A stretch of 64,000 bases of DNA from Haliotis asinina (Eukaryota; Mollusca; Gastropoda; Lepetellida; Haliotidae). Of the stretch, positions 8,364 through 50,470 are shown in pieces. The stretch is taken from contig NC_090280.1 of the NCBI RefSeq assembly GCF_037392515.1, positions 24,867,118 through 24,931,117 on the forward strand. The letters run 5' to 3'. The number at the start of each line of letters is the position of its first letter. The stretch's first letter is position 1. Below the pieces are notes generated by a model. That model searched no databases and had not been told where the DNA came from. It saw only the letters and a program-made list of their open reading frames with translations. The position numbers and the translations under genes were made by a program.

Positions 8364-10003
8364 CTTGAACTATTAATATCTTGTTCAGCTAATGGGGGAT
8401 TTGGGTGCTTTGCAAGATCAGTTTACACTTGTACTCTCCTCTGTCATCCCAGGTGACATTTGTTAGATTGAAACCAAATTTTTCAGTTTCATCCAGCAGA
8501 TAAAACCGGGATTTGTAGATGCCGTTGATACTGAGGGACTCCTGAAGAGAGAAGACATACCACAATTAGGCACACAAAGAAAGACGTGAACTGACTATAA
8601 AGCGTTGCCACTATGGACAAACTTCTAGAGTCGGTGAGCGATAAAAACCTTTACAGGCACCATTTTTGCATCGATAGTTATCGAATTAAAAGGTCTTGAC
8701 AAAGCAATGTAGACAATGTACGGTTCACTCATGAGTAATAGTGTAGCTAATTAGATTGAACGGAATGTCTGACCTTAGTTTTAGGTGAAGACCAAAACAA
8801 TCAATGATGACCCTGTTATAAGGCTCTTCAAATCTGGAATGGGTTTTAATGGTTCGGTAGTTACTGACTTTGTTTGCCAGCCATATGGCTCACATGCCAG
8901 GTTTTGCCAGATTCAACCACATCATGTCGCAAATTAGGGACACAATGTTGTCACAAATTTTCTTCACACCCAAATGTAATGCCGAATTAGTTTGGTGTGC
9001 CAACCTAAAAACATGTTCCGTCAGGAATTCGGCAGAATTTCTGAGTGGGTTTAGTTTTACGCCACACTCAGCAATATTCCAGCTATATGGCGGTAATTCG
9101 GCAGAACAATATATGGAAAAACCTCCATTCATTATCAGCGGACACACCCGTCTACCTCGATTTCCCCTTGAAATAATAACTTTTACTATGAAACTGCCGT
9201 ATAGGCTCGAAAAAGGAGTTCTTGGTCTCGGTGTAACCCAATTGCTCTCTGTCCAGAATTAATTGTCAGTCATTGGAGAAGATTAACAACCCTACCAAAT
9301 AATTCTCAACCCTTAACCAACCCCAACACCAAGTCAGTCTTCAAATTCTCAAAATGGAGATGAGCACATGTAAAACGACATAAAACCCCATGTGAAGATA
9401 TTATGTTATCTTTGTTATGTTATATTACCGAGTTTGAAAGTGGGTGCCCGAGTTAGCAACCACAGCCACCGTGAGGTCAGTAGCTTCTATACTTCTATAT
9501 AGTTCAGACGTACTGAAGGCATAATTTAGTGCCTTTGAGTATTTGAGTATTTCCGGGAATTACAAATAGATATTTGTAATCTATCTACCTGCTTCAAGTG
9601 CTTCACACTCATTTGCTCAACCTAGCATAACCCTCTGTAATATAACTGTTGCGGCAAGTATTTCTTTTAAATCCAAGAGCTTTGGTACTGTGTTAACAAA
9701 ATTGGTATCGTATTTCTGTGCTGTCTGTGATGACATAAACAATGACATCTGCAGCCATTCCTTATGAATGATGTAAAATAAATATGCACCAAAAAGTGGA
9801 TGATTAGTTGCTCAAGATGGGCATCTTGCATCCCAGGATGCCATGTCATCAAATGGGATATTACAATACCGGTGAAAAATCTTTTTTGAGTGTCTCTGCT
9901 ATCCGTGTCGTTTCAAAAGACCACTCGACTGCAAAGAATGGAGGGACTTCATAATCCCACACAAAGGAAGCAGTTTCGTTGGCGCACACTGTCACATTTT
10001 CCG
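8364..10003 (-). CDS. Ig V-type domain encoded by two exons, with premature stop
   Basis: Exon 10003-9870 (134 nt) follows a good acceptor (TATTTGCAG) and ends at GTATTG. It enters in phase 1 and exits in phase 0. It carries the first half of an Ig domain, with the first cysteine (VTVCANETASF) and the core tryptophan (AVEWSF). Exon 8541-8364 (178 nt) follows CTCTTCAG and ends at GTAAAG, entering in phase 0 and leaving in phase 1. It carries the second half with the hallmark DDRGEYKC. Phases match, and the exit phase is the one usual for Ig exons. A TAG at 8391-8389 interrupts the last beta-strand (QIPH, stop, LNKILIVQ). So this is a soluble truncated product, a pseudogene, or an allele/assembly error. 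The leader, membrane and tail exons are not found with confidence. Confidence 0.65.
9042..9096 (-). repeat. SINE tail, second subfamily
   Basis: Contains TTTAGTTTTACGCC, CACTCAGCAATATTCCAGC and TATATGGCGG, the 3' end of the subfamily that is longer at 10483-10735. Only the tail is present. Confidence 0.7.
9100..9868. other. Intron-like non-coding DNA
   Basis: Lies between the two halves of the - strand Ig domain. The open frames here have no recognisable domains. No RNA gene or repeat family could be recognised. Confidence 0.4.
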
Positions 10004-10199
10004 CTGCAAATACAAGTTGTATGGATATATACTCCTCACAAAAAAGCAACAAGTTCTTTCAGTGTAAGATATTTATCAATCTCAATAGTGATTTTAGCCT
10101 ACATGTTACTGAAAGGAAAATATTTAAAGAATACGTGCCCTTTAGTGACTGTCAAATCGATTTAACTAATAACACTGACATTGCCCGACCACAACCACC

Positions 10200-10480
10200 C
10201 TTAATTACAAGATGCAAATTGTGTGCCATGAATGTGCTCCACTCTTCACAAATGCACCCTGATCGATGTGAGCCTACCAACAATCATTCCTCTGGTACAA
10301 CAAGCGGGTCCTAACTTTTTTTGATGGATGATAATGCCTGAGAAAGAGTTGTTAATGATGTTGTTTAGATCAACAACATCCCACATATGAAATGGCCTGT
10401 AAGGTCACTTGATCTTAATACCACTGAATATGCATGGGGTATTATTGGAAGTCGTGCGTACGGTCTCAGTGGTCACACCC
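10200..10480 (+). pseudogene. Tc1-like transposase fragment
   Basis: Broken reading on the + strand gives two neighbouring motifs of Tc1/mariner transposases: the second catalytic region with FFLMDDNA (about 10315-10338), and the third with WPVRSLDLNTTEYAW (about 10401-10440), where the catalytic site would follow. A stop directly follows DDNA. No terminal repeats were seen. It is a short dead remnant. Confidence 0.65.
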
Positions 10481-10482
10481 AG

Positions 10483-10735
10483 GATGAGTGAGTGAGTTAG
10501 TGTAGTTTTACGCCGCACTCAACAATATTCTAGATATATGGCGGTAGTCTGTAAATAATCGAGTCTGGACCAGACAATCCAGTGATCAACAACATGAGCA
10601 TCGATCTGCGCAATCAGGAACCGATGACATGTGTCAGCCAATACATACCTTCAAGCATGGGTTGGTGAAGGTCTATTCTACCCCGGGACCTTCACGGGTC
10701 CCCCCAGGGTGAACTTGGGCAGGCGTTAATGTGAA
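10483..10735 (-). repeat. SINE, second subfamily, long copy
   Basis: Reads TGAGTGAGTGAGTTAG, TTTTACGCCGCACTCA, AATATTCTAGATATATGGCGG, then a conserved body (GACAATCCAGTGATCAACA, GAGCATCGATCTGCGCAA) and a distal block with CCCGGGACCTTCACGG. A second, more diverged copy is at 14584-14815. On the - strand the distal block is the head and the GAGTGAGT run is the tail. Confidence 0.75.
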
Positions 10736-10739
10736 AATG

Positions 10740-12380
10740 ACAGAACATTCCACAACAGAAACTTTAAAGATTCATTCGGTCAATGCAAAGAGTTGTGGAA
10801 TCTTGCAATTGGGCCCATGGTGGCCATACGCGTTACTGAACAGTTTCATTGTCCCAAACAGACTTCAACTATAATGTTAACATATTTCTCCATCAATGCA
10901 ACGCATTTTTCACGACTGTTTCACGGGTACATACTTTTGATGATTTGTAAGTCTGTTAATGTTCAATACCATTTCACTTCATTTTGTTAATCGTGTGTAC
11001 ATATCTTTCACCATTTTAATGCACCATTCCATGGTGTGCATTTTCAATAAATGAAAATGTAACGAGACGAGAAAAAAAAATGTCTGCTTAACTTTTTGTG
11101 ATGTAGTAGTATATTATGGCCGCTTCGTTTGAGTTATCTCATCTTAGATCAGTTTGTGGTTTTGAATATGCGGGCGGCGGAGCCGTGAGTGGCGGGTGAC
11201 TGACATGAGTCTGAATTAGTGTGAGTGAAAGAATGGTGACCCGATTCATGATAACCCATGAAAACACCCCGACTAGTATACGTTACCACATACCATCATT
11301 AGCGCATGATGTTAGCACGAACAGCAGTAATAGTATCCAAACTGCAACACAACCAGTGCAAGACCGTCAATCACAAGACATCTGTTAGCTTTGTAAAGCA
11401 AAATAATTGCAAAGTCATATTTCATCGCATACCTAGCATGGGAAATAGAACTTTAAAAAGCTTTATGATAAAAAGCAGGTTTTCATTGCTGGAAAAGGCT
11501 ATTTTCACATTCGACTTCGATGGCACAAATGATTGATGTCTATGTGGATATTGGAATAGAAAAATAAAGGCCCCGAATGTATTAAAACAACAATATAATA
11601 TGTTATTGGATTAATCTGGTAAGAAGCGCCTTGAGCACCTGCCGTCCTTTCTTGTGTAGTTTCACATCAAGATTTGAAAATAATAACACTAGGAGATGGA
11701 AAATCATTTTAAAGTGAAGTTTAGTTCAAATATGCAGCGCACTAATATATTTATGAAGAATGACGGTCACCGTAGAATGTTGTTGGTGCTATTTAATTTT
11801 ATCATATACACCATATTTTCCCTGGATTTTATCTTTTCTCACAATACATACAGTTATGACTGAACACGGCTTTTTTCAGTATGGATATGGTAGTATGTAT
11901 CTGAAGTGCTCAGTTTCTGTTGAGATACAGAACACAGAGTCGAAGACTATTACAGGTCTCGGAATGCAGGCACCTTTTTGTTATAACAGGAAAAACAGTG
12001 ACGCGTGCTAATGAGAATACAATAGGAGATTTATACAGGGGAATCTCCTAGCCCTACGTGGGCGAAATTTCAGAAAGTGAGCGAGAGCTCATAGTGCATT
12101 CTTGCTCTTAAGAGAGCGAAGTTCAATTTTTCATGATTTTGTTTTGGAATAAATGAGTTTACAAAACTCGCTGTAGGGTATATGTGTTACAGGGAATGTG
12201 TGAAACCATGGATTTCCCTAAAAGAGTCAGTGGTTTAGTGAAATAGTTGTGATTTCAGGTATTCCCCGAAGTTTCATGGGGTTTTATGAATGTTTTGCTG
12301 TTCATGCTGTTCCATGACATACATTCTCCGTTAGGATATCAGTGAACGCGTGAAATTAATTATTGTAGCTTAAAACTGTA
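10740..12380. other. Non-coding stretch
   Basis: AT-rich, no recognisable gene. The open frames at 10793-10990, 11306-11536 and 11760-12011 (+) are short, have no domain that I recognise, and lack supporting splice context. Confidence 0.4.
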
Positions 12381-12381
12381 T

Positions 12382-29887: not shown

Positions 29888-29901
29888 TTTCATACATTGA
29901 G
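29888..29901. repeat. LINE B target site duplication, left copy
   Basis: TTTCATACATTGAG, identical to 35967-35980. Both copies lie in LINE A coding sequence (the codons for SQCMK), which confirms that LINE B inserted into LINE A. Confidence 0.9.
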
Positions 29902-29962: not shown

Positions 29963-30421
29963 GGTAATCAATCTAAAATATCCGTCGACAAAGGACAGTA
30001 AAACTAACTAGATTATCACAGATATATTGATGTTAAAACTAGTCATGAAATCTAAAACACTTAAACTAGAGAGGACGATACAGAGAATAAAAACAGGCTA
30101 TAGGTCGCCAACAACTGAAGGTAGGTCACCATACTAGGGACCATGGGGACTTACAGTACTTTTGCTACCTGCATGGACCCTAGCTGGGTTTATATCATCC
30201 CTTCAGCTGCAAGCGATGAAGTGAATTTTAGCCAAAATTAAAATGACAGGGATACTACAATTAAACTAGACGGTCAATATAAATTACCTTTGAATGCCTT
30301 GGGACTTACTCACCTTCTCAGAAGGACAATAATTTTACTCTACTTCAACCCCCCTTGAAGGTACAGCCACTAACAATCCCAGTTACTAATCCAAATGACC
30401 ACTTATAAAATATTTATCTAT

Positions 30422-33400: not shown

Positions 33401-34096
33401 GTTAGCTTTATCAAAATTCCACCTTGTTGCAGGGGGTTCATCATTCGGATTTATAGCTGAAAGTATTGTGGGAAAATGGTCACTTCCACATAGATCGTCG
33501 TGGACAGACCATTCGAATTCGTTATATATGTTTGCATCTGTGAGTGACAGATCGAGTGCAGAATAGGTTCCAAAACCAGGGTGTAAGTATGTGACAGATC
33601 CATCATTAAATATGCACAAATTATTTTTTGCAATGAAATCTTCAAGAATTTTTCCTTTATTGTTGGTATCGGCACTTCCCCACAAAGGGTTATGGGCATT
33701 AAGATCACCCATGATTATGCATGGTTTAGGAAGCTGGTCGAATAGATCCTGAAGATCGGACTGCTGAAGAGCTGAAGAAGGAGAGATGTACAAAGAACAA
33801 AGCGTAAAGGTTATCTGCAAAGTAAGCCGGACCGCAACAGCCTGAAGGTTACTTTTAAGGGGAACTGAGCTATGGATTACATCATGCTTCACAAGAATAG
33901 AAGCACCGCCAGTGGCTTTATCACCTTCAGGTGAGAATGAATGAAATGAATTATACTGGCGCAATTCAAATTTATCAGTACTTTTCAGATAAGTCTCTTG
34001 TAAACTAAACGCCGATGGTGTATAATCTTGTGATAATAATTGTAGGTCGTTAAAATTGTTCCTAAGGCCTCTGCAATTCCATTGTACTAATGTCAT
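30422..34096 (-). CDS. LINE B ORF2: endonuclease - reverse transcriptase - RNase H (two frameshifts)
   Basis: ATG at 34096. Endonuclease (34096-32800): NCRGLRNN, the catalytic Glu in LQETYL, GDLNAHNPLWG, and C-terminal SDHFPT. A frame change near 32805 precedes the RT, which reads on through SNYRPISLTS and FRKNRSTIDHL to the catalytic FVDDFNVS (about 32085-32105). RNase H follows with acidic residues in FTDGSKYGG, TTEANAIL and FSDSLSC. A second frame change near 30990 breaks this domain; LPSHVGISGNTLAD continues it in 30964-30422. The C-terminus carries a Cys/His cluster (CIPCDEGITVKHVLLDC). It would nick DNA and prime reverse transcription at the target. Only two breaks in ~1,200 codons; the catalytic residues look intact. 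Confidence 0.88.
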
Positions 34097-34104
34097 AAAA
34101 ATAT

Positions 34105-35331
34105 CTAGGGAGGTTCAACTGGAGACCGTGCGTGTTTGGTAGCGCCACTCCTGCACCCTGTTTGTGAAGGAGTGATCTCCATGTCAAGCGCTTCAAACTG
34201 ATTTTGAACCGTCACTGATGGTGACTCTTCTAAATATTGAAGAGTTCTGGTCTTTTTCCTCATTTTTTTCTTTTCTTTGCTAGATATATGATCAACGCCT
34301 TTTGTCGCCTGTGTTGAATTCATGGCTTCTGGCTGAGATTCTGTCTGGGACGATGAGGAGCGTTGAGACTCATGTGATATTGGAGGATTGTCATCCAAGG
34401 TTATCTGAGTTGCATTCACCCAAGATATTAAAGTCTGACAGGATGTTGAAACTGATTTCTTACCAGATTTTGGAGCAGACGAAGGAACTGTAGCAGAATA
34501 TGTTTGACCAGTAGAAGATTTAGATGGAGTATTTACTAATTTCTTTGCCTCAAAATAAGAGATGTTATTTGTGTATTTGATTTTAAGAACTTGGCTTTCA
34601 TATTCAAACTTTGGGCAAGATTTAGACGAAGCCAGATGTTCACCACTGCAGTTGGCGCACTTGATGGTATCAGTGCAATCAGTACTCTCATGAGGTCCGC
34701 TGCAACGTGAGCATACAGACTGGCCTGTGCAAGATCTTGCACCGTGTCCAAACTTTTGGCATTTGTAACACCGGAGTGGATTTGGTACATAGACTTCCAC
34801 TCCGATATTACAGTATCCTGCTTTAACAGATTTAGGGAGTACTGTCATACAAAAAGTGAAAAGGTAGGTGTTAGTTTTGACCACATTTGAATCCTGTTTC
34901 CTGATGAAACGCTTCACAGAAGTAACACCTTGGTCTTTCAACTCGGCCACAATTTCTTCTTCCGACATGTCTGACCTGTCTCTAACAATTCCTCTACAAG
35001 TATTCAGTGTCTTATGAACGGAGACAACAACCTGTTTGTTAACAAAATGCTGCAAGCCCAGCAGATTGACAGATTGTTGTCGTCGTATACATTCTACCAA
35101 GAGCGAACCATTTCTGAGGCGAGTGACATTCTTTACCTCTCTGCAGACACCCTGGATGCCCTTGGAAACAGCAAAAGGGTTTATATTAAGTGGACTCCCA
35201 TCATCAGTTGCAATAACCAAAAACCTTGGCCAAGAATCATTCACTGAAGGGGATACCTCCTCATCAGATGACGAAGAAAGATGTCTCCGCTTGTACGTCT
35301 TTGATGAACCAGAATGCATATTTTGAGCCAT
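34105..35331 (-). CDS. LINE B ORF1: CCHC zinc-knuckle nucleic-acid-binding protein
   Basis: An intact 408-codon frame from ATG at 35331 to TAG at 34105. The N-terminus is Ser-rich (SSSSDEE). The middle holds an RRM-like fold region without a clear signature. Residues ~190-240 carry three zinc knuckles: CYKCQKFGHGARSC, CSRCSGPHESTDC and CANCSGEHLASSKSC. The C-terminus is Ser/Thr/Gln-rich and low in complexity. This is the usual ORF1 design of the I clade: it binds the element RNA and forms the particle with ORF2. It ends 8 nt before the ORF2 start, so ORF2 translation is probably coupled by re-initiation. Confidence 0.88.
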   Translation of the reverse strand: MAQNMHSGSSKTYKRRHLSSSSDEEVSPSVNDSWPRFLVIATDDGSPLNINPFAVSKGIQGVCREVKNVTRLRNGSLLVECIRRQQSVNLLGLQHFVNKQVVVSVHKTLNTCRGIVRDRSDMSEEEIVAELKDQGVTSVKRFIRKQDSNVVKTNTYLFTFCMTVLPKSVKAGYCNIGVEVYVPNPLRCYKCQKFGHGARSCTGQSVCSRCSGPHESTDCTDTIKCANCSGEHLASSKSCPKFEYESQVLKIKYTNNISYFEAKKLVNTPSKSSTGQTYSATVPSSAPKSGKKSVSTSCQTLISWVNATQITLDDNPPISHESQRSSSSQTESQPEAMNSTQATKGVDHISSKEKKKMRKKTRTLQYLEESPSVTVQNQFEALDMEITPSQTGCRSGATKHARSPVEPP

Positions 35332-35966
35332 GGTATTAGAATATTATTCGACAGCCCTGCTCCCCACCCGCCATCGAGTGTCAACATGGACGATGCTGCA
35401 GCGGAAACCAGACTGCAGCACCAGGGTTACAGGGATGTTATACTCCAGAAATAAGGACCTAAATAGCTAAGAAATCTAAAAGATCAAATGCCAGGCTGGT
35501 TCGGCCCATGACATAAGTCCTCAGAAACTCAGAACTTAGAGATCCATACCACCAGATTGGCCCATGAGCCACCGCCCTCTGGCATTAGACTCTAGGCAAT
35601 TAAATGTAACAAAGATTTTTATATTGAAATTGATAATCACAAGAACCAATACCCAATATGTTGAAATGTGCAAAAAGTGAGCTATGAACAGGGCTTGGCA
35701 TGACCAGCCGATTGATAGAACCGGGCCCATTCTACCACCCGTCTAGGTGAAGTCAGGGCCAAAGTGGTGTGTTAGGCAATAGGAACACGGTTCCAGGCCC
35801 CTATTGCCCTCAACCACCAGGATCCCCTCCTCCACCGACACAGGGCCGCAACCCACGGCCAACAGGTTGGTGGACCAAATATACCCCCGGGTCCACAACG
35901 GGGGTGTTGGCGAGCTCTTGGCATTACCCAGCACCCACCACGAGGAGGTGGCTCGCCACGGGTGCC
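35332..35966 (-). promoter_or_regulatory. LINE B 5' UTR
   Basis: About 635 nt between the 5' insertion border and the ORF1 start, GC-rich, with short inverted segments (for example GGTGGGTGCTGGG / CCCAGCACCCACC seen on opposite strands). The outer ~200 nt recur at 1550-1757. Being the transcribed start of the element, it should hold the internal promoter; I see no TATA box. Confidence 0.6.
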
Positions 35967-35980
35967 TTTCATACATTGAG
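35967..35980. repeat. LINE B target site duplication, right copy
   Basis: TTTCATACATTGAG, identical to 29888-29901. Confidence 0.9.
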
Positions 35981-37095
35981 ATGCGGAATGAACTGCTTTC
36001 ACAAACATATCTAAACTGTTGTTAAGGTTACCGTCAACTTCATCCACCATATCTTGAAGTGAAGGACATGAGTTACTAAGGGAAATTAAAAATTCCAATG
36101 CCTTGTTATCATTCCACTTGAAAGTAAAACTGCCTTCGGCATGTGGCATAGGCTCAAAAGATATATCATGCGCAAGTTTACGAGTAGAACTTTTACCGAG
36201 TCGACACTGAGAATCACGGGCATATGTTTAGATTCAACTCTAGAATCGACTATAACATCATGTTGGATATAGAATAAATCAGCAGTACCAATAAAGCAGT
36301 CAACTACGCTACAACCTTGTTGGGATATATAAGTAAATTCTCCTGTATTGTCACTTGACGTTTTGCCGTTAAAGATATACAAATTATGAGAAAAGCAAAA
36401 GTCAATCAGTTTACGACCAAAGGTGTTTACAGAACTGTCGCATGAATGTCTTTAATTTACAGGCACTGAGGGTTCCTCCGGGAATGCAGCTTCGTCTGGA
36501 CCGTGAAGGCCAAGTGTGTCTCGTGGGTTGTTATGGACACCTACACGAGCGTTCAAATCTCCGCAAATGATGACGTCACATCCGTGGTCTGAATGGTCTG
36601 TCAGCCACTGGTCAATATTATCGACAGCGGTTGTGCGGTCGGCTGAAACATAAAACGTTGAGCCGATAGGAGGTACATATGTTGCAAATACAAGGACACC
36701 TTTATTGTTGCCAACTGTACTTTTATCTAGTTTGATACAGACAACATTGTCAATATCTAGAGAAATGTGTTGGCATTTACTAGCTAGAGTGTTTTCAACA
36801 AAACGACCACTCCGCCAGATAATCTTCCAGCCTTTGCTATTCTATGAGCTTTGGATATGTACAAGTCGTAAGCAGAGAACTGGGTTATTGCTGTTAAATT
36901 ATCGAGAAATGTTTCCACTAGGCAGATAAACTCAAAGTTATGTATATAAGCAATAAAATCGGGGTTGTCGACCTTTGACAGAAAACCCTCTATATTCCGT
37001 GTTAGGAATCTAAAACTGTAGCTGGAACGTAGTACACCTGATATATGCTGTAGATCTTCAATCTGGGCCGGAGTTCTGTCACTTACTTCTTGATG
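35981..37095 (-). mobile_element. LINE A, 5' part: endonuclease
   Basis: On the - strand from about 37090: FRFLTRNIEGFLSKVDNPDF and FICLVETFL (Asn and Glu of the APE active site), then GRLSGGVVVLLK. VIICGDLNARVGVH follows near 36575-36541. Next are ISQQGCSVVDCFI and SKHMPVILS (the His region of the C-terminal motif) in 36382-36200. It ends at VHSASQCM next to the LINE B duplication, and the continuation KKSLKSG is at 29890. Frame changes occur at about 36780, 36460 and 36170. The right border touches the Gmr1-like RT lead-in at 37090-37096. Confidence 0.8.
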
Positions 37096-37416
37096 ATGCC
37101 TGGTCGAACTGATGTTGTTAGCCATGATATATATGTAGGTGATGCTCTGCCTGTAAAACAACACCCATATCGGATGAATCCAGTGAAGCGTGAAATTCTG
37201 CGGAAAGAGGTGCAATACATGCTGGACATTGACATCACTGAACCCAGTGACAGTCCGTGGAGTTCACCATGTGTTCTTGTGCCGAAGAGTGGAGGTGGTT
37301 GGCGCTGCTGTGCTGACATGAACGCTGTTATGCACTCTCACGCACTGATTCGTATTCTATTCCGAGAATGGACGATTGCATTGATCGCATTGGTCAAGCT
37401 AGGTATATAAGTAATT
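37096..37416 (+). pseudogene. Gmr1-like RT, N-terminal part
   Basis: Continues the reading broken at 27530: PGRTDVVSHDIYVGDALPVK, YRMNPVKREILRKEVQYML and SPWSSPCVLVPKSGGGWRCC, then in a shifted frame MDDCIDRIGQARYIS. This is the fingers region of a Ty3/Gypsy RT. The reading is lost after ~37416, where another insertion begins, and resumes at 38610. Confidence 0.85.
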
Positions 37417-38609
37417 GTAATAGGACGGGTCTGGCCATCAATGGACTTTGCGTTGTGTGTTTTTATAAAAAGGTGTTTCATGGAAACTTTAATGGCCAAG
37501 CTCGTACTACCACCCCAGGTTCTTTCCACTTTTTGTTGCGGGTTGAATGACAACTGAACTCAATATAGTTTTAACAAAGATTATTTATTATAATAACATA
37601 GTGTAAATAATTGCACCTATAAGAACCTTAAATCTTTATGAAAACATAACACAGAGGCAAGTCAGAAGCATTTCCCACAACTAATACCAACCTGACTAAG
37701 TTCTGCAAAAATTACAATGTCTCACAGATAACATTCAGACCAGTCAGGTCTGGTGCCCGCTCGATTCAACAGTAACATGCATCAACAACCCGCAACGTCT
37801 ACATGCCACTTACTTAGAAGTAAGCAACTAACTGCTATAACTCAGTGTGAGACAACAATTCACGACTGCTACAAACTGTAACACGACTGATGCGAACTCA
37901 GCTAGGTTCTGCAGTAAACATCTAACTACTACAAGTCAACGTGGGACAACAACTCACGACTTCTACAAACTGTGTCACAACTGATGCTAACTCAACTAGA
38001 TTCTGCAGTAAACTTGCAATGCACCATGTTAAAAAGAATAAAGGTGCTTAAAATCCTCCCGCAAAACGCAACTAAATCAGACTCTACATACGACTTTTAC
38101 TTTCCTACTTGCTCTAACCTCTACTATTTTACAACTAAAACGGAGTACATGGAGTCACTAAGCTGTCATAAATGAATCCATTCACTCTGTTGGCACTACA
38201 TTATCTCTAACAATTACAACTTTATTGTTAATCAAACATATTAAGAGGGGGTGGGAAAAGGGCTTCGTTCTGATGCAGAACGTACGGAGTGGGGAGCTCT
38301 CACCTCCAACCAGTTACTGGTCGTCACGGACTCATTAGTGACAGGCGCTCCAGCGCTTATATACCCGGTCCGAGCGACTACCCGGATGAAGAAAGTTTGA
38401 CTCTCAGTGATTGGCCTGGATAACTAAAACATGTGGCATTTAGCCACAACAGACGAACTGACGGACTCACCGACTGACTGTCTGACTGAACTAGGAAAAC
38501 ATTCGAAGCACTCAACAACGCTACCAGAATACACGCGAGTTTCCATGAAACACTCTCATCAGTGCCTGTAAGCATTGACGAGTTACAGAAGCCATAAAAC
38601 CCTTTTTTA
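37417..38609 (-). mobile_element. LTR-like insertion inside the RT
   Basis: Between the two RT halves. The segment 37534-38587 has TG...CA ends (TGTTGCGGG ... GAGTTACA). Read on the - strand it has a TATATAAGCGC promoter-like site (38355-38365 region) and ends CCCGCAACA like the LTR at 21689. It also holds a two-copy ~93-bp duplication (37863 and 37956) and a 16-bp inverted pair (37473-37488 with 38538-38553). Most likely a solo LTR plus flanking junk. No target duplication found. Confidence 0.45.
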
Positions 38610-39329
38610 TCGCATACGCTTTACTGAAGGACTTCTGGCAGATTCCACTCACAGACCGTGCAAGGAAAATATCGGCATTCGCTACTTCAGATGGACTGTA
38701 TCAATACAAAGTGATGCCGTTTGGTCTGAAGAACGCTCCACCAACGTTCCAGAGACTTGTCAACAATGTCACATCAGGCCTTGGTCGTGTCGAGCCTTAC
38801 ATGTATGATGTCATCGATTATTATCACATTGAGTTGGATGACCATCTGAAAAGGACTCGTGCTTTCTTCCAAAGACTGTCTCAGGCCAAGTTAACTGTGA
38901 ATCTCACCAGGTGTGAATTTTGAAGGCACAAGTTGAATTTTAGGGCATGTTGCAGGGCACGGCCAGGTACAACCAGTTCATGCTAAAGTTGAAGCAATTG
39001 TACATTTTCCAGTGCCTCAATCTAAGAGAGAAGTCATGAGATTCTTGGGTATGGCTGGCTATTACAGAAAGTTTTGTCAAAACGTCTCAGATGTTGTATC
39101 ACCACTTACCAACCTTTTTTGGGAAAAGGTAAAATTTCAGTGGGATGGCAGTTGTCAGACTGCATTTGAAAAAGACAAAGCCATACCCATGAATTCTCCA
39201 GTATTACAGGCACCAGATTTTGAGAAAGTATTTAAGTTGCGAGTTGATGCCAGTGGTGTAGGTGCAGGTGCTGTCCTGATTCAAGAGGATGATTCAGGAA
39301 CTGAACATCCAGTTTGTTATTTTTCATAG
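38610..39329 (+). pseudogene. Gmr1-like RT palm and start of RNase H
   Basis: LLKDFWQIPLTDRARKIS, LYQYKVMPFGLKNAPPTFQR and NLTRCEF are the palm of a Ty3/Gypsy RT. The catalytic box, normally YLDD, reads YMYDV at about 38800-38815, so one catalytic Asp is lost. The connection (MRFLGMAGYYRKFCQN, 39045 onward) follows. Then comes the RNase H start with the catalytic Asp in LRVDASGVGAGAVL (39235-39275) and HPVCYFS. It breaks at 39329, where a SINE is inserted. Confidence 0.88.
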
Positions 39330-41599: not shown

Positions 41600-41738
41600 A
41601 TGTTTATAGGGAAGTATCATCTAGTGAAACTACATAATGTGACACATAATATCAGAAACTGTACCTGTCAGTTTTTACTCGCCACAGTGGTGACAATGTT
41701 TCTGTTTTCCTCTGTGGCCGTTACACTATGTGGTTTTG
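41600..41738 (+). CDS. Ig receptor exon 1: signal peptide
   Basis: Ends at the donor GTATGT in phase 1. From ATG 41696 (A at -3) it gives a short hydrophobic leader (MFLFSSVAVTLCGFG) with cleavage plausible near the exon border. The upstream ATG at 41600 adds 32 residues without a clear role. Confidence 0.75.
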
Positions 41739-44700
41739 GTATGTATCTGTCTTCGAAAACTGACATATATTTTGAATCTGTGGTAGAGTTAATTTACGTA
41801 TTATTTTTCCGCATTTGCTTTTGCATCCATTGTTATCGACTTCTGATTCTGGTTACCGTTTCGTATACAACTCTAGCCTCCATGACAACTGGATACCCAT
41901 ACACTGTTACTTGTGTTGGTGAAGATGTTACCATGACCATGAACCCAGACAATATCAGCTTTATATATTGTGTATGGCTGAACGGTTCGGTATCTGAGAG
42001 ACTGTTAGTGGTCCAGCCCAAGTCACACCGTGTAGTGGTACTCAACAGTAGTCACACCGACTACAGGACCAGGATCAGATACACCGAGGAGGGCGCACCA
42101 TCACAGACCGGACAGCTGAGGTTTACCATCTACAATGTTACTGTACAGGACGCTGGTACTTACTACTGTCAGGGAACCAAAGGAGAGAATGTTCCTGGAT
42201 GTAGACAGGTCCTCGTTGTAGCACGTAAGTATTTAACTATAAATTCCGAATATTAACATGTCGCTAGCCTATATGTTATGGGCAATAACGGTGAATTCTT
42301 CAAATGTCAAAACAGTTCGTAAAATCGGGTTTTTTTGGCACTCGCATTATTGTATCAATGGATTTACTCATTTGTTCACAGAAAAGCCATCCACACCTAA
42401 TATCACCGGACCTGCCTCACCTGTATCAGGTGAGAATGTCACCCTCACATGCTCCTCCTCCTCCCGGAGTCTACCCCCGGACCACCCCCCACTGACCATG
42501 ACCTACATCTGGAGGAGGGACGGGGCGTCTCCTACAGGTGGAGATGAGATGACAATACCCCACGTCAACAGAGAGAACCAGGGAGACACCTACAGCTGCC
42601 AGGTTGTGGAGGAGGGGCTGAAGTCTGACTGGAGTCACGAACATGTACTGGATGTCCCATGTGAGTAAGAACTACCTTGTTTACGGTACAGGAACCTTGC
42701 ATATCTTTGCAACTACGGCTCTGAGTATAGCACCGTCATAGAGCCCTCATGTCCTGAATCATTATTATAACAGTACTTTGGTGGTTCGGATCGGAATTAA
42801 CGACAACATAGCCAAAATCTGTGATGAAAGTTTTCAGCTTCAAAGGTTTAACGAAACACTTCAAATACTTCAAACACGAATACTTCAAAATTATGTCACA
42901 TCACTGTTGTTAATCTGGATGTGAGCTCAGATCAGCACAATACATAATATAGATTGAATGAATCTGTTGCTACGACAACGAATGCAGTTTTTGTTCCGCG
43001 GTCTCGCAATTCGAGCCTCAGATTTCAGAAAATGTAAATGCTCGGTGACACACAAAGGCCAAAACAAGAATATTTAAAATGTTAGGGAAATAAGGAACAC
43101 AAGAGACTCACTACCAACCACGCATGGCAAAATTCAAGACATTTAGAGTATATTTAGAGTATCTTCTACTATTCTGTATTCTATATTGTACGCAAATGTT
43201 TACACAAGACAGAGCTTTCTCTCATTAACTTTTCATTTACCTTCTGAAGTACCTAAATCATCTGTTAAAAACCTCCCCAGACACGACCACAATACGACCT
43301 GAAACAAGCCGTGAAGCGTCACTGAATATGTAACGCCAGTGTCACCTATCGGAACAATTGCGTCGTGACATTTGTATGTAACTTGGCGGCGCTCAACTGG
43401 CACTGACACGATACATTTCAACGTTCAGATTATTACTCATGGTTCAACTATAGCTTTAAAATCGGAACTATGTGTCGTCACAGTACATCACAGTGTTTAT
43501 TCCAAATGACTGTCATGGCATAAAATGGGTTGACTGTGATGATCAAGGTCGCGATTGATTAATGATTATTGATTGTGCAAACTGTGCATAACATCAGTAT
43601 TGCACTATTTGGTGTTCCTTAATTAGTGTAACTGACGCCAAATGACGAGGGAAGTATCTTAGATGTGTTTTCATCTCACCATCGCACATCAATTATTCCA
43701 GATGGACCTGACCAGATACTGTTTGAAGGCACAAGGGACAAGCTGGAGGTAGAAGAGGGGAAACCTCTAACAGTGAGATGTTTTGCTGACTGTAACCCTG
43801 CCTGTACTGTAACCTGGTGGGACACATCCACACAGATGGTGATTACAGGACACGTGGAGGCTGTGTTGTCTATGCCAGCTGTAGATGTGTCTGTGTCTGG
43901 ACAGTACACGTGTCACGTCAACAACAGCCATGGGAGTGCATCACGGAACCTGACACTGGAGGTCCTCTGTAAGGCCTGCACAGATTCCGCAAACATACAT
44001 TCGTTACAGATTGTTGTAACATTTAAAATTATATTTGCATAGGACCCGCATTGACTGTTTAAGTGTTTACTCACTTCAAATTTCTCAAAACACACAGAGA
44101 TTTTGAACAGGTATCTACCAAAATGTGGATCAGGAGGTCAATCTTGACTATTAATCTGATGATATGACATCAAGTCAGTGTGATTCGTCACTCTCAGATT
44201 CCCCCAAATCAAAAAAATCAGATCTGAACCGAGGAGAACAAAAACATCATATATTTACTCTATTACATACATCATTTATATAATTCGACAAACAAACCAG
44301 TTCCAATAAACCCTGACATTTGCGACTCTTGCTTCCATTTGAACACATTTCAATGTGATCTTACGCCATATGTTGTATGTATATTGAATCAAAGGAAAGC
44401 TGTTATTTGGTATGGTGAATGTTGCAGCACGTGAGTTAACTGAATCTGGTGTTGTTTCCATCGTACCTGTGACTGCCGCCTGTTCTGTCCTCATTATGGT
44501 CATCGCTTTCGTCATCGTCGCCGTCGTTTTCCGAAGAAACAGGACCAAGAAAGGTATTGTCTTTGTGGTGATACGAGAAAATATTAATTATGCTGCTGTC
44601 GTATATCCTGTCATGCATCTCTTCAGTTTTATTACTTCAATTACAGCATTTGAATCCTTTCTGAATGATAATTTGCATTAGAAGTGATTACACTAGGGTA

Positions 44701-47700
44701 TGTTTTATCTATTTCAGGAGGTAAAGTGTACAGGTGAGGACTCTCAATAGCAGATATCTGTTGCCAGTATATCATTTCAAGAACAATGAGAAGACCACAG
44801 CGTTTACATACGAGTTAAGGTACAGGTTTAGCCCTACATGTTCGGTGTACTCATACAGGTTAAGATATAGGGTCACTCACATATGTTACGGTACAGGTAC
44901 TCCTACAAGTTAAGGTATAGAGTTTCTCCTACAAGTTAAGGTATAGAGTTTCTCCTATACGTTAAGGTATAGAGTTTCTCCTACAAGTTAAGATACAGTT
45001 TTACTCCTACAAGTTAAGGTACACTTTTGCTCCTACAAGCTAAGGTGGAGAGTTACTCCTACAAGTTAATGTACACAGTTACTGATACAAGTTATTATTG
45101 GATATTTATATAGCGCACATATCCAAGCAACTAGTGCTTGCTCAAGGCCCTGGTATTTGTTACCCTCGACCATTGGATGTCCGTCTCAGCATCACATCGT
45201 ATTATCAATCTCAACTCCCTGGGGAGTATACAACTCTTGCTGCCTCTAGGCGCACTGAGTTTATTGTACAAACTAAGGTGCAGAGTTACTCCTACAAGTT
45301 AAGATACAGTTTTACTCCTACAAGTTAAGGTACAGTTTAACTCCTACAAGTTAAGGTTCAGAGCTCCTCCTACAAGTTGAGGTACAGTTATACTCCTACA
45401 AGTTAAGGTGAAGTTTTACTCTTACAGTGTTGAGGTACACTTTTACTCCTACGACTTAAGGTGCACTTCTACTCCTACCAGTTAAGGTACAGTTTTACTC
45501 CTACAAGATAAGGTACAGAGTTACTCCAACAAAATACGTTTCAGTGTTTCTCTCATAAGTTAAGGTACTGAAAAGAAAGAAAAGGATACAGGATTAGCAT
45601 TGTCGTTTGTACTTTCGAGGTGAGCATTATGACTTCAAGATAATCACAGAAGTTTTTGGTGCCAGGTAGGCTCAGGTAGGTAATATCTAATATCAGCATT
45701 TGCAGCTAACTAATTAAAGGTTGATTTTTTCGAAGTTTAACTTTGCTGTCTGATGTGTGCCGTGTCATGATATGAATTGCTTACTCCTTCACCTCATGCA
45801 TGTCTTTTAGGGCTGGAGACCGCAGTATGGCTGACAACGAAGCACAATTTCAACAAGATCCAAGTGGTAAGTGTTTGAAATCTTGCAAAAGCGTGTCGGC
45901 GCATTCGATCAGCAGACTTATTCGTGCGGATCGTATGAATGCACTGCACATCATTCATTGTTCGGAGGGGCGTGGGATAGTCCAGAGATTTTTCGTCAGG
46001 CGGAGGAAAGTGAGTTTAGTTATACGCCGTTTGTAGCGATTCCAACAATATCTGGGCTACACCAGAAATGGATTTCACACATTGTACTCAAGTGAGGGAT
46101 CAAATCCGCATTTTCGCCGAAAGGGGCGAACGCAGTAATCACAAGCTAGTAGCTACCCAGCTGTCCCGTTATGCCGAAGACACGGGTTCGGTGTGCTGAG
46201 CGCAACATGTCGCAACAAACGAACAACTGAAAGTAGTGCTTATGACACCTGGATAGGATATGTCTAGTAATAGTGACACAGTCAGTGGTCACATAAAACG
46301 TGATGTATGTAATTTAAGTATTGTATCGGGAGATGGCGCGAACGCCATTGTACATCAGGTCGCACAAAAAGAAGCAGGGGAAGGCGGGATTTTTATTAAA
46401 CTTAATAGGGCATGCTCATAGATTTCATTTGAAACTTTTCTTCGTCATTACTCAAGGTCAGTTTATTGAACATGTGTGCAGCAACACCCCACAAGTAATA
46501 GAACTCCCGACCCCCACTCCCACCCAAGTGCCACACGACACTCCAACCTCTATACTCCACCCAACCGCCACACGCCATCCGAAACCCCACCCCAACCCCT
46601 ACCTCCATCCAACCGCCAAGCGCCATCCCAATCCCAACCCAATCACCACACGCCCCTCCCCTTCCCAACCCCAACCCCTGCCTAACGGCCACACGCCACG
46701 TACTTGTATTTGTATCAAATTCCTTGTACTTGATGTTTGTTTCTAATCAACTTGATCATTTGGAAATCATTCATGGAATATTGTTATCTTCCGGCTTGCC
46801 CGGAAGATAGGACCTGTAATCAAGGAAGATGAATGATGTTCCAATATTAGAAACAAGATAAAGCCCCAGGATATATAAAGTGACCTTGAACTAAATGTTA
46901 GGAAAAACACGTGTTCGCAAACAAGCACTGTGTTCAGACGAAGAAACTGAAAAGCCGCTATAGTTAATCAGCCACACATGACCCGAGTAATACCAAGGTC
47001 CTTGTGCTGTGTAGGAGAGGTAGGGTGGCCCAGTGGCTAAAGCGTACTTTCTTCAAGCCGAAAGCCAGGGTTCCATTCCCTACTTTGGTCCAACATGCGA
47101 AGTCCATTTCTGGTGTCCCCCACCGTGACATTGCTGAAAGAATGCTAAAAGCGGCGTAAATCCAAATTTGTTTATTCATTCATCTACGTCACACACATTA
47201 TTGGTAGCATGCCGTTTACTGCAGAGTAAAGAGTTACTGGAATAACTGTAGGTTCCACAGACCGAGAAAAACACCATGCGTTGTCGCATATTATCTGACA
47301 AGCCACTGCTTGTGATAAATATTACAAAAACTTCATATACATGTACACACAAATGCTTCACTGACCTACCATGTAATATTGATTATACAGTTGTTGATTG
47401 CAGAGTGCAACGGGTGACAAGCAGTGTTTAGGATTGGGTGTTTAGGATTTGGTGACAAGCAGTGTTTAGGATTGGGTGTTTAGGATTGGGTGACACGCAG
47501 TGTTTAGGATTGGGTGACAAGCAGTGTTTAGGATTGGGTGACAAGCAGTGTTTAGGATTGGGTGACAAGCAGTGTTTAGGATTGGGTGACAAGCAGTGTT
47601 TAGGATTGGGTGACAAGTATTGTTTAGGATTGGGTGATTGAATGATAAGCTGTTACGTAATAGATACGTTTTCAAGTAGATCTTTAAGAATCTACAAATA

Positions 47701-50216
47701 CAAGTAATCTACCCCATGAAATTCTAGATCTGACATGCTCTTCACAAATTATTAACGGTTAGACTATCTGCTTCATTTATGCCTGGCATCATGTCCCAGT
47801 TGCTGAAGTCAATGCTCATGATGTTAAACGCGAGGTTGTCTGGTCGAGGCTCGATGTTACAGCCCGCTGTCATAGCTGGGGTATTGCTGAGTGCGATGTA
47901 AAGGCCTGTAGAACCATTGATATTATTTCTTCTTGTAATACTTGTTTCTGACTATATACCCACAGACCTGTATGCCAAGGTGAACAAAAAGAGAAGGCGC
48001 AGGAGAGAAGGTATAGCCTATCTTTCTATCCATCTGGTCCGTGAGTATCACCTTAGGTGAGGTAGCCTAGTGGATAAAGCGTTCGCTAGTTACGCTGAAG
48101 ATCCGGATTCGATTCTCCATATGGGTTTAATGAAGACCATTTCCGGTGTCCCCGCCGTGATGTTGATGGAATATTGCTAAAAGCGGCGTAAAGCAAATCT
48201 CACTTGAGGTGATCTATACATGACGTCATCTACATCCCATGACGTCATCTACGCCCCATGACGTCATCTTAGGTCCTGACTATTTAACCTCAGCGGTGTG
48301 TCCGTGTGTATTTTCTGTGACAATGTGCGGATGGAGGTGCCGTCTAGAGCACTGACATTCACCGTGTTGAATGGCTGTCCGTGTCTGTCATGAAAGAGAC
48401 TATGGTTATGGGTGCGAATCCCCAAATATGGTTCTTTGTTTGTCAGCATCAGACCATAGGTGTTTAACACAAGCTGTAGTCAGTGTCACTGACGGATGTA
48501 CAAAAAATCACTTTAACGAAGATTCGCGAACCTCGCACACACACTCGCTGTTTTCGACACCTATTCATCAGGTGTCTTTGTTGAAAGACATTTTTGTAAG
48601 TTTGACATCCTATAGAAGCCTTCTGGGGCCATTTTTCATTAATTTCCAAATGCACATGTTGAATTATTAAGTTACAAACTTGACAATTCAAGAAAATAAG
48701 TTGAAAAAAGCGAAACCCCTAATGGCCCATCAAGGCTTCAGTACCAATCTCACACAATTGTTCTATAGTTCATTTACTTTGTTCTCTTTTCCACAGTGTC
48801 TGATGTTTATGCCACGGTACAAGAGGCTCAATGCAAACACTTCATGAACAGGGCTTATGCCGGCGCAGGGCCATCGGTAAGTGTGTACTGGAACTGTTTT
48901 CCTACAATACAAAATTGACAGGAAGATAATTTATTACGATTCAGTCAGTGTGTCGTAAAGACGTGGATACAAAATAGGCAACGTAAGGTGACGCCGCTTT
49001 CAACAATATTCTTGCAACATCGCGACGGGGAAACACCAGAAATGGACTTTGCACATTGTACTAATGTGGGTAATCGAACCGGGACCTTCGGCGTGAGGAG
49101 CGAACGCTTTATCCACTAGGCCACCCCACCGCCCCTCGAGATAATGAATGCAATTGCGAAGATCGATGCTCATTATGTACACCATTGATTTTCTCGTTCA
49201 TTCATTGACGTCAACTGCTGAGTGTTGCGTAAAGCGAACCTAACATATCATAAAACATATGTCAACACAGCACAGCAAAAATATATCTCATCACTTAGTT
49301 CACCAGTGGCTGTAGGTTAAAGAGCAGAAAAAACAACAATACACAAACAAAAAACAAAAAAATACAACCACGCCGAGGCCACAGAAAGTTAGTCAATGTT
49401 TTCCTTTCATTAACAACAGACTTACGTATCACTAGCAGAAGGACCGTATATTCTCACTACTTCTATCAATAATTTCAATGATGATGTTATTACATTATGT
49501 TCTTATTCATATTAAGTAATGCAAAACTTACAAAACTTACCAATAAGTTCAATTCCTCCTAAAAAGCGAGACTTGTATGGGCATTAACATTACAAGTCTT
49601 TTCAAAGAGCCTGAACAATACAATTTAATACATGGGATGTGTGAAGATATCATGTGTTCAGTACATTATAATGTTGAGATCATACATATGTTTGCTGTCT
49701 CCAGTCGGAAAATGCAGTTCTAATCGACTATGCAGGATCGGTTGCTGCCGAATACAACAACTGTGGCGAAACGGTAGGTTTATTATACATATCGTGTCAC
49801 GTTCCGGGAAGAGACGTCTCTGATTGGCTGACACAATGCCGAAACGACTCTAAGTTGCAACGAACTCAAAGAGAAAGCATTTTCTGCAGTAGTGAACTGC
49901 TTGGTTCAGTAAATGTACCAGGTGCAGATTTGGGTTCAGTCATGGAATAAATTCCCCTGATAGGAAAATTTAGACGTTTGTAAGTGCAGTTGTGTTAAAA
50001 TTTCAGAATGATGACGGTCTGACCTACGCCGACCTTGCCCTTGAATTGCCTACACTGATCGACGGCAAACCAATCATACACAGAAGGGAGGAGCCTGTGG
50101 TATATGAACAGATTGACTTCGCCCTCACCCCCGGGCCACAGCTTCCGGACAAGATATGGGAAGTGGAAAAGCAGGAGGAGGAGGAGAGACGACAGTGCCT
50201 CTGGGAATCAAAATGA
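41600..50216 (+). CDS. Transmembrane Ig-superfamily receptor with three Ig domains and ITIM-like tail (11 exons)
   Basis: Proposed exons: 41600(or 41696)-41738, 41877-42224, 42382-42660, 43702-43968, 44428-44553, 44718-44733, 45811-45866, 47966-48010, 48797-48876, 49705-49773, 50007-50216. Every junction is GT/AG and phases agree throughout; the exon lengths sum to 1635 nt = 545 codons with the stop (513 from ATG 41696). Layout: signal peptide (MFLFSSVAVTLC), Ig V-type domain, two further Ig domains, membrane segment (VLIMVIAFVIVAVVF) with a stop-transfer RRNRTKK, and a ~160-residue tail with DLYAKV, DVYATV, LTYADL and VVYEQI. LTYADL and VVYEQI fit the ITIM consensus, which recruits SH2 phosphatases once phosphorylated. 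So it is an inhibitory-type immune or adhesion receptor at the cell surface; the ligand is unknown. I do not recognise a named orthologue. Introns contain SINEs and minisatellites. Confidence 0.85.
41877..42224 (+). CDS. Ig receptor exon 2: Ig domain 1 (V-type)
   Basis: Acceptor CTCTAG, donor GTAAGT, phase 1-1. Cysteine in VTCVGEDV, tryptophan region IYCVWLNGS, and the hallmark DAGTYYCQG near the end. Extra cysteines (YC before VWL, GCRQ) may form an additional disulphide. Predicted N-glycosylation sites include NIS, NGS, NSS and NVT. Confidence 0.88.
42382..42660 (+). CDS. Ig receptor exon 3: Ig domain 2
   Basis: Acceptor TTTGTTCACAG, donor GTGAGT, phase 1-1. VTLTCSSSSRSL, TYIWRRDG and NQGDTYSCQV are the first Cys, Trp and second Cys of an I/C2-type Ig domain. 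It begins with a proline-rich linker (PSTPNITGPASPVSG). Confidence 0.9.
43702..43968 (+). CDS. Ig receptor exon 4: Ig domain 3
   Basis: Acceptor ATTATTCCAG, donor GTAAGG, phase 1-1. LTVRCFADC, VTWWDTS and VSGQYTCHVNNSHGSASRNL are a standard I-set Ig domain. A second cysteine pair (DCNPAC) may form an extra disulphide. Confidence 0.92.
44428..44553 (+). CDS. Ig receptor exon 5: membrane segment
   Basis: Acceptor GTTGCAG, donor GTATTG, phase 1-1. ELTESGVVSIVPVTAACSVL leads into a ~22-residue hydrophobic helix (IMVIAFVIVAVVF) and the basic RRNRTKK, so the C-terminus is cytoplasmic. Confidence 0.9.
44718..45866 (+). CDS. Ig receptor exons 6-7: micro-exon and juxtamembrane tail
   Basis: Exon 6 is only 16 nt (44718-44733, acceptor TATTTCAG, donor GTGAGG) and encodes about GGKVYR. 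Exon 7 (45811-45866, acceptor GTCTTTTAG, donor GTAAGT) continues AGDRSMADNEAQFQQDPSG. Phases 1-2 and 2-1 fit only if both are joined. The long intron between them holds the 44.8-45.6 kb minisatellite. The micro-exon border could alternatively be 3 nt further in (44721), keeping the frame. Confidence 0.65.
44812..45568. repeat. Intronic minisatellite (CCTACAAGTTAAGGTACAG type)
   Basis: Imperfect ~26-28-bp units such as ACTCCTACAAGTTAAGGTAC, more than twenty copies, in the intron after the micro-exon. Interrupted at about 45088-45270 by a SINE-like segment. Confidence 0.85.
45088..45270 (-). repeat. SINE-like insertion in the minisatellite
   Basis: TTATTATTGGATATTTATAT followed by AGCGCACATATCCAAGCAAC and, at the far end, CTAGGCGCACTGAGTTTATT. 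Read on the - strand it ends with GCGCTATATAAAT and a TAATAA tail, like the GGCGCTATGTAAGTGAATTA tail at 53410. It splits the array cleanly. Confidence 0.55.
46013..46170 (-). repeat. tRNA-SINE, diverged copy
   Basis: GTGAGTTTAGTTATACGCCG, CAACAATATCTGGGCTACAC, CAGAAATGGATTTCACACAT, then a damaged head (GCGAACGCAGTAATCACAAG). In an intron of the Ig receptor gene. Confidence 0.75.
46480..46690. repeat. CCCCAACC-rich low-complexity stretch
   Basis: Imperfect C/A-rich units (CAACCGCCACACGCCATCC type). Open frames on both strands here (for example 46321-46746 +) reflect composition. Intronic. Confidence 0.75.
47013..47168 (+). repeat. tRNA-SINE, full-length copy
   Basis: Head with A box (GGTGGCCCAGTGGCTAAAGC) and B box (GGTTCCATTCCC), body (CATTTCTGGTGTCCCCCACC) and tail (GAATGCTAAAAGCGGCGTAA). 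Intronic in the Ig receptor gene. Confidence 0.85.
47411..47640. repeat. 24-bp minisatellite (TTGGGTGACAAGCAGTGTTTAGGA type)
   Basis: About nine to ten 24-bp units plus shorter variants; as 24 is a multiple of three the - strand reads an endless PNPKHCLS repeat. Intronic, not a gene. Confidence 0.92.
47966..48010 (+). CDS. Ig receptor exon 8: DLYAKV and basic cluster
   Basis: Acceptor ATACCCACAG, donor GTATAG, 45 nt, phase 1-1, so it can be skipped without frame loss. Encodes DLYAKVNKKRRRRRE: a YxxV tyrosine site followed by a basic run. Confidence 0.78.
48055..48210 (+). repeat. tRNA-SINE, full-length reference copy
   Basis: Head: AGGTAGCCTAGTGGATAAAG (A box) and GGATTCGATTCTCC (B box). 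Body: CATTTCCGGTGTCCCCGCCG. Tail: ATATTGCTAAAAGCGGCGTA ... TCTCACTT. The clearest copy for defining the family. Confidence 0.88.
48221..48266. promoter_or_regulatory. Three CRE palindromes in 19-bp tandem repeats
   Basis: TGACGTCA occurs at 48221-48228, 48240-48247 and 48259-48266, exactly 19 bp apart, within repeats of CATGACGTCATCTACRYCC. This is the perfect CREB/ATF binding palindrome. It lies in an intron of the Ig receptor, next to a SINE. Confidence 0.7.
48797..48876 (+). CDS. Ig receptor exon 9: DVYATV
   Basis: Acceptor TTTTCCACAG, donor GTAAGT, 80 nt, phase 1-0. Encodes VSDVYATVQEAQCKHFMNRA and AYAGAGPS. DVYATV has the YxxV spacing, but Asp at -2 departs from the strict ITIM rule. 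Confidence 0.8.
48986..49140 (-). repeat. tRNA-SINE, full-length copy
   Basis: Tail GACGCCGCTTTCAACAATAT; head on the - strand GGTGGCCTAGTGGATAAAGC and B box CGGTTCGATTACCC. Intronic. Confidence 0.87.
49705..49773 (+). CDS. Ig receptor exon 10: IDYAGSV
   Basis: Acceptor GCTGTCTCCAG, donor GTAGGT, 69 nt, phase 0-0, skippable in frame. Encodes SENAVLIDYAGSVAAEYNNC and GET, with two tyrosines outside the ITIM consensus. Confidence 0.78.
50007..50216 (+). CDS. Ig receptor exon 11: ITIM-type motifs and stop
   Basis: Acceptor AAAATTTCAG. Encodes DDGLTYADLALELP (LxYxxL) and EEPVVYEQIDFALTP (VxYxxI), about 28 residues apart, then a Glu/Lys-rich end and TGA at 50214-50216. The paired spacing fits tandem SH2 binding. 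Confidence 0.85.
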   Translation, partial: NDDGLTYADLALELPTLIDGKPIIHRREEPVVYEQIDFALTPGPQLPDKIWEVEKQEEEERRQCLWESK

Positions 50217-50470
50217 ATGAACCTTGAGAATCTCCAGCTGCAGGACAAGACCATGGATGTGGAAGAGATGGAGGAGGGAGGCTATGCTTCTGGGAGTGAA
50301 GATGAAAGACACTTGCGAATCTTCAGCTGCCAGACAAGACCTGGGAGGTTGAACAGGGAGTAGAGGAGAATCTCAAGGCTACATTGCGAAACATAACTAA
50401 CATTTAATGGAATCATTTAGATGAGCAAATATACTTTCAAAGCTGAAAAAAGCATTGGTAATAAAGAGAG
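50217..50470 (+). promoter_or_regulatory. 3' UTR with tail-derived repeats and poly(A) signals
   Basis: The end of exon 11 (CTTCCGGACAAGATATGGGA) recurs in degenerate form at about 50236 (CTGCAGGACAAGACCATGGA) and 50328 (CTGCCAGACAAGACCTGGGA), a ~92-bp unit repeated past the stop. AATAAA signals lie at 50460-50465 and 50539-50544. Confidence 0.65.

Follow-up and report, generated by a model that had tools for sequence, protein, structure and literature searches.

The window analysed here is a stretch of 64,000 nucleotides from the abalone Haliotis asinina (NCBI RefSeq assembly GCF_037392515.1, contig NC_090280.1, forward strand; C1:24867118-24931117 in our contig numbering). Its principal feature is a gene at 41600..50216 on the plus strand, which encodes a receptor with three immunoglobulin (Ig) domains and a long tail that matches the immunoreceptor tyrosine-based inhibitory motif (ITIM) twice. 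Relatives of this gene lie on the same contig, and their tails are of two kinds: class A, with ITIMs as in the window gene, and class B, with YEEI/YQEI motifs. All comparisons are with paralogs in the window's own genome (1.14 Gb, 159 contigs), and the loci compared, numbered with the prefix L, are the best-scoring copies. A sequence-only reading of the window had proposed eleven exons that sum to 545 codons in a consistent frame. Re-derivation of the GT/AG borders and phases of exons 1–11 yielded the same model, 1635 nt that encode 544 residues and a stop. The features of the gene are as follows, with splice ranks given among 91 candidate exons in the tail region.

41600..41738, plus strand: exon 1, putative signal peptide starting at Met1 or, alternatively, at Met33 (41696); a similar exon is found in class A and class B paralogs
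41869..41870, plus strand: AA in the window copy where the family has the exon-2 acceptor AG (alignment with 34 other rows)
41877..42224, plus strand: exon 2, domain D1, a V-like Ig domain without the B-strand Cys
42382..42660, plus strand: exon 3, domain D2, C2/Ig_2-type
43702..43968, plus strand: exon 4, domain D3, I-set
44428..44553, plus strand: exon 5, stalk and transmembrane (TM) helix
44718..44733, plus strand: exon 6, 16-nt micro-exon (splice rank 1; 100% match in L070 and L071)
45811..45866, plus strand: exon 7, tail (splice rank 8; paralogs)
47966..48010, plus strand: exon 8, tail, DLYAKV (splice rank 82; borders kept in L070 and L071, partial match in L072)
48797..48876, plus strand: exon 9, tail, DVYATV (splice rank 2; paralogs)
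49705..49773, plus strand: exon 10, tail, YAGS and YNN (splice rank 5; paralogs)
50007..50216, plus strand: exon 11, ITIMs LTYADL and VVYEQI, stop (motif match; paralogs)
50196..50356, plus strand: direct repeat with 89-nt spacing, straddling the C-terminus and the 3' untranslated region; similar sequence is present after the stops of L060–L062
50460..50544, plus strand: two AATAAA poly(A) signals (50460 and 50539)

Phase 1-1 is common to the TM exon and all three Ig exons. Exons 2–11 have a G+C content of 0.44–0.57, compared with 0.32–0.44 in the adjoining introns; exon 1 is less enriched (0.38). The best splice chain through the tail region scored 44.3, against 39.8 for the highest of 43 control regions, a set of mutually overlapping stretches that takes in the gene's antisense strand. 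However, the exact five-exon tail chain that had been proposed was absent from the chains kept by the splice-score script at three penalties; the top-scoring chains added small exons and, at two of the three penalties, skipped exon 8. The tail is therefore not fixed by splice signals alone, and the evidence from paralogs matters. L070 and L071 contain all eleven exons in order with an open frame, and their stop lies two codons earlier than in the window copy. At the projected borders 10/10 donors and 9/10 acceptors are present in both, exon 2 being the exception. The borders projected from the window give an out-of-frame chain in L072, which we do not count as intact. Taken together, these sequence comparisons confirm that the eleven-exon Ig receptor gene is genuine and show that it is one of a large family.

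The exception at exon 2 is peculiar to the window copy. Of the 34 other aligned rows, 33 have the acceptor AG 6 nt further upstream; the remaining row, L021, is missing this 6-nt stretch. Since the window copy has AA at 41869–41870, its CTCTAG acceptor represents a private in-frame shift. No stop interrupts the frame through intron 1 (138 nt) of the window copy; we nevertheless set aside the possibility that it is coding and read it as a true intron, because its borders are conserved in paralogs. Translation may start at Met33 rather than Met1, since a TATATAA at 41562 leaves scarcely any leader before 41600, although this argument is weakened by the 44 occurrences of such a pattern on the gene's strand of the window.

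The layout first suggested for the protein (signal peptide, three Ig domains, TM helix, tail) holds up and is kept in paralogs. Pfam places Ig domains above cut-off in the whole protein (V-set 5.7e-7, Ig_3 5.2e-17), and hydropathy indicates a hydrophobic N-terminal stretch, a single TM helix at ∼ 353–379 and a tail of 165 residues. D2 and D3 alone each pass at least one Ig cut-off; D1 alone scores 23.7 bits, below the V-set cut-off of 26. The B-strand Cys position of D1, placed via alignment with Fc-epsilon-RI and the V-set columns, is Met, Val or Leu in all 30 distinct D1 sequences aligned, so that the canonical V-set B–F disulfide is missing. The F-strand Cys is present in 29/30 and the G-strand Cys in 27/30, and a disulfide between strands F and G in place of B–F is plausible. 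Alternative disulfides through C59 and C78 were dropped because C59 occurs in one of the 30 sequences (the window copy) and C78 in 11. AlphaFold models of D1 were unusable (predicted local distance difference test score 35.9 from the single sequence, 44.8 with 27 sequences). The nearest solved sequences include generic adhesion members of the Ig superfamily together with immune proteins (titin, CD22, FCRL5, MAG, CEACAM1, NCAM2, CADM4).

A tblastn search confined to the window found no second copy of the gene below E 0.19. The picture of an isolated single gene was overturned by the search of the whole genome. The ectodomain gave at least 138 matches, every one of them within 22.35–28.07 Mb of C1, a lower bound because 132 of 474 candidates were scored. 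They include at least 70 D1 exons, all at C1 22.35–27.16 Mb, which form two adjoining subclusters. Exons 11 and 3 have no matches in viral contigs, and a repeat from the window, searched against genome contigs, had none there. Other dense clusters of Ig_3 exons lie at C1:12.7-13.3, C2:26.38-26.41, C7:57.6-57.7, C10:37.3-37.5 and C16:39.12 Mb (best 150 of 1372 candidates); the genome thus holds several expanded Ig groups.

Copy number must be read with some care. Within C1:22.73-23.14 Mb equal-scoring D1 pairs recur at a near-constant offset of ∼ 333 kb (22800725/23134253, 22778138/23111612 and 22739097/23072782). They may be segmental duplications or unmerged haplotypes, and the recurrence of such pairs means that the copy number may be inflated. 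At its strongest this argument would make the cluster a modest family swollen by assembly. We regard that as rather unlikely, given the 30 distinct D1 sequences seen; moreover, the pairs sit within one contig and account for some of the copies only.

The tail of the window protein contains the two ITIM matches that had been pointed out, LTYADL at residue 480 and VVYEQI at 506, as well as the core motifs YAKV and YATV. LTYADL is presumably identical to an ITIM of human SIRPA. The window tail has neither an immunoreceptor tyrosine-based activation motif (ITAM) nor an immunoreceptor tyrosine-based switch motif nor a strict half-ITAM (hemITAM). When the 165-residue tail was shuffled, two or more ITIMs arose in 2.2% of cases, and two ITIMs together with four Yxx[ILV] sites in 0.4%. 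A genome search with exon 11 gave 26 matches (26/26 candidates scored), 25 of them at C1 24.24–27.15 Mb; exon 10 is present at 25 of the loci and exon 9 at 22. The consensus [SIVL]xYxx[ILV] is kept at ITIM1 in 21/26 and at ITIM2 in 22/26 copies; VVYEQI itself occurs in nine, and many others have VVYEEI. The remaining match, L063 (C1:2962270-2965440), lies ∼ 22 Mb from the cluster and is 65% identical, with ITIMs LIYANL and VVYEEI. Relatives without the tail motifs would have counted against the sequence-only reading; a minority (5/26) do lose motifs, whereas most copies keep both.

A different tail is found in the neighbouring subcluster. Five 10-kb loci at 22.4–23.4 Mb share exons 1 or 2 through 5 with the window gene, and exons 7–11 are unmatched there. 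Comparison of these loci with one another revealed the class B tail, which runs from a 22-nt exon through the 56-nt exon VVTYTRDADTDGGYEEIV and another 22-nt exon to VVSYHREDENDGSYQEIE. The top four conserved 45-nt windows fall on the second 56-nt exon; among those ranked next are the first 56-nt exon, more of the second and one window at a second TM-like exon. The latter lies downstream of the YQEI exon, is phase 1 at both ends and is seen in L065–L068 (VPIVAVYSIMLTAVAVVVAAVTVLVC in L065); in L069 a one-base gap falls at this place. In size and phase class A exon 7 equals the class B 56-nt exons, but no DNA match between the two was found. Searches with the YEEI and the YQEI exon each gave at least 40 matches on C1. 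Those for YEEI (best 40 of 50 candidates) lie at 22.36–23.41 Mb; of those for YQEI (best 40 of 54), 39 lie at 22.41–23.46 Mb and one at 28.09 Mb.

The two tails are partitioned along the contig. Among the D1 exons listed at 24.2–27.2 Mb, 21/21 have an ITIM exon within 15 kb downstream and 0/21 a YQEI exon; among those at 22.3–23.5 Mb, 31/49 have a YQEI exon within this distance and 0/49 an ITIM exon. This partition, and the consensus kept in most exon-11 copies, including position −2, count against a quite different explanation, namely that the genes belong to an adhesion or allorecognition family in which the main task of the tail tyrosines is not inhibition but sorting through YxxPhi signals or Src-family docking. 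Adhesion proteins do stand among the nearest solved sequences, alongside immune ones, and all four Yxx[ILV] sites of the tail also fit the YxxPhi consensus. On balance we think this explanation improbable.

We consider it probable instead that the window gene is an inhibitory member of a lineage-specific complex of paired receptors with two tail classes. The label 'paired-type', used when the gene was first described, fits beyond the evidence then available: the adjoining paralogs have the same type of ectodomain and a YEEI-type tail. The genes are linked, their ectodomains are related and partly grouped by class, and their signalling tails differ, as in paired families. YEEI and YQEI resemble sites bound by the Src homology 2 (SH2) domains of Src-family kinases and also resemble hemITAMs, the consensus of which is a single Acidic-Gly-YxxL/I motif.

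The sequences show the structure of the gene, its family, the partition of the tails and the conservation of the motifs in most copies; the members are type I membrane Ig receptors with related ectodomains (V-like, C2/Ig_2-type and I-set), each with one of two tails. The class A tail has two core YxxV exons and the two-ITIM exon, the class B tail two acidic YEEI/YQEI exons. The most likely mechanism, inferred as to phosphorylation, SH2 partners, the sign of the signal, ligands and immune expression, is the following. D1 and D2 would bind variable ligands, from pathogens or self. The ITIM tyrosines of class A would be phosphorylated by a Src-family kinase, whereupon an SH2 phosphatase of the SHP-2 type would dock on them and damp the activation of haemocytes. 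Class B tails would recruit SH2 kinases of the Src or Syk type and thereby activate, a role that we propose because of the motif resemblances described above.

Several observations weigh against this paired-receptor reading. Both ITIMs are lost in L057 and L060–L062 and ITIM1 in L058 (four of the 26 copies have LTYADP with AVYE[QE]I and one further copy LTYADP only), and early stops fall within exon 11 in L055, L058 and L064. Of the 49 D1 exons listed in the class B region, 18 have none of the tail exons listed within 15 kb, the tail lists being lower bounds. No terminal exon of class B was found in 19 kb, and the class B frame is assembled in part only. The donor site of the class B 56-nt exons, GTTGGT, is weak. 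By inspection, DTDGGYEEI and ENDGSYQEI come near the hemITAM pattern but fail its strict form. The class B TM helix, judged at four loci, has no charged residue of the kind that serves pairing with an ITAM adaptor; the tyrosines are in class B's own tail.

The missing terminal exon, the D1 exons without a listed tail exon and a stop within D3 of L066, the fifth class B locus, could also mean that class B is a decayed or regulatory side branch and class A an ordinary inhibitory family that is not truly paired. Decay is at odds with the conservation of the class B exons: identity among the 40 matches listed for each is 88–100% for the YEEI exon and 92–100% for the YQEI exon. The tail frame is open from the TM exon in all four loci tested, of which two are near-identical (L065 and L067, 98%), and the 16 class B sequences among the 30 distinct D1, which are best-scoring copies, are all stop-free. 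We therefore judge a side branch to be quite unlikely.

The D1 tree and the substitution ratios each cut both ways for the paired-receptor reading. In its favour, the class labels need five changes in a tree of the 30 distinct D1, well-supported branches force at least two of them, and among 200 bootstrap trees none has either class as a single clade. Nevertheless, the classes group beyond chance: shuffled labels need ∼ 10 changes, and at most one of 500 shuffles was as low as five. The ectodomains are thus related, and although the two classes partly mingle there is no free shuffling between them. The pooled Nei-Gojobori ratio of nonsynonymous to synonymous substitution is 0.86 for D1 (30 sequences; interval 0.64–1.18) and 0.41 for exon 11 (17 sequences; 0.18–0.95), intervals that overlap, and gene conversion can distort such values. 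Within D1 the ratio is 1.02 for class A, 0.75 for class B and 1.60 for the FG-G end; D2 gives 1.14 (21 sequences) and D3 0.64 (9). This suggests, without proving, that the tail is more constrained and the ligand-facing part free to vary.

A second, divergent Ig gene lies in the window.

8364..11341, minus strand: divergent V-type Ig gene with a signal-like exon (11341–11294), two V halves (10003–9870 and 8541–8364) and, in this copy, an in-frame TAG

The Pfam matches of this gene are below threshold (V-set E 0.0042 for one half, none for the other). Twelve matches to the 3' V half occur in the genome, each of them within 24.27–27.20 Mb and stop-free over the matched stretch; the open frame there spans 80 residues in six of eight close copies and 58 in two, one of which is the window copy. 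For the 5' half there are 13 matches, in that region as well. Ten of the 12 3'-half matches are oriented divergently to a listed class A D1 and lie 27–43 kb upstream of it; the other two lie downstream on the same strand. The divergent V gene thus seems to be part of the class A duplicated unit and appears to have been co-duplicated with at least ten ITIM receptors, an arrangement that recalls the fester/FcoR gene pairs of Botryllus. A scan of the minus strand (1–13500) for TM- or Ig-like exons in frames of 60–400 nt found none, a weak result since its filters exclude the known V halves. Elsewhere in the window, 20697–39329 upstream of the receptor gene contains stretches that to the eye resemble mobile-element coding sequence, with frames like those of transposases and reverse transcriptases.

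More tentatively, with the balance close to even, we propose an independent lophotrochozoan complex that spans several megabases. It would hold ∼ 20–25 ITIM receptors and ∼ 40 YEEI-tailed relatives with partly intermixed ectodomains, and at least ten of the ITIM receptors would be tied to the co-duplicated V gene, maybe a ligand or co-receptor as in fester/FcoR. The B–F disulfide of D1 would perhaps be replaced by F–G.

ITIM-bearing Ig receptors have been described outside vertebrates. Molluscan examples reported to be inhibitory are the oyster proteins IgIT and CgIgIT2 (PMC11999971) and CgSiglec-1 (PMC5877582); likened by description, they share this role with the receptor proposed here, and the portions of these papers available to us describe no paired cluster. 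The Botryllus fester co-receptor (FcoR), as its available account has it, is a type I protein of 520–610 residues with a V-type and two C2-type Ig domains and a long tail with ITIM, hemITAM or YxxI/L/V core motifs, encoded at many loci that each adjoin a cognate gene of the fester family (PMC12065747). Its layout and number of loci are similar by description, in another phylum. Unlike the window protein, in which a search up to E 1 matched no sushi domain, FcoR contains a sushi domain between V and C2, and the split of tails into two subclusters is a feature of the abalone family that sets it apart from FcoR. The same source places ITIM/ITAM-type motifs in genes of the Hydractinia allorecognition complex (Alr), a cnidarian system likened here by description (PMC12065747). 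The SIRP family, in the part of its description consulted, has a V and two further Ig domains, an inhibitory member with an ITIM tail and a paired activating member, but its D2 and D3 are C1-set (PMC12975943); here D2 is Ig_2 and D3 I-set (C1-set matches D2 at E 0.19 and D3 not at all). Activating SIRPB has a charged TM helix and uses DAP12, whereas the class B TM is uncharged. Orthology to any single one of SIRP, Siglec or FcoR is unsupported, as domain types differ and there is no specific best match.

The layout, phases and ITIM reading of the first interpretation therefore stand, whereas its premise that such receptors are best known from vertebrates was too strong, because those of oyster, Botryllus and Hydractinia had already been reported. 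What is new is the scale of the family, the partition of its tails and the missing B-strand Cys. In the titles and abstract openings of the open-licence literature searched, no paired-receptor cluster of an abalone or other gastropod is described. Paired activating and inhibitory receptors such as KIR, LILR and SIRP are a hallmark of vertebrate innate immunity, and receptors of the ITIM/ITAM type also serve allorecognition in tunicates and cnidarians. If our reading is true, the presence of both tail types, ITIM and YEEI, over a set of related ectodomains would suggest that paired logic arose again in a lophotrochozoan lineage, and the abalone would have, at one locus, a candidate system for tuning the response to self and non-self.

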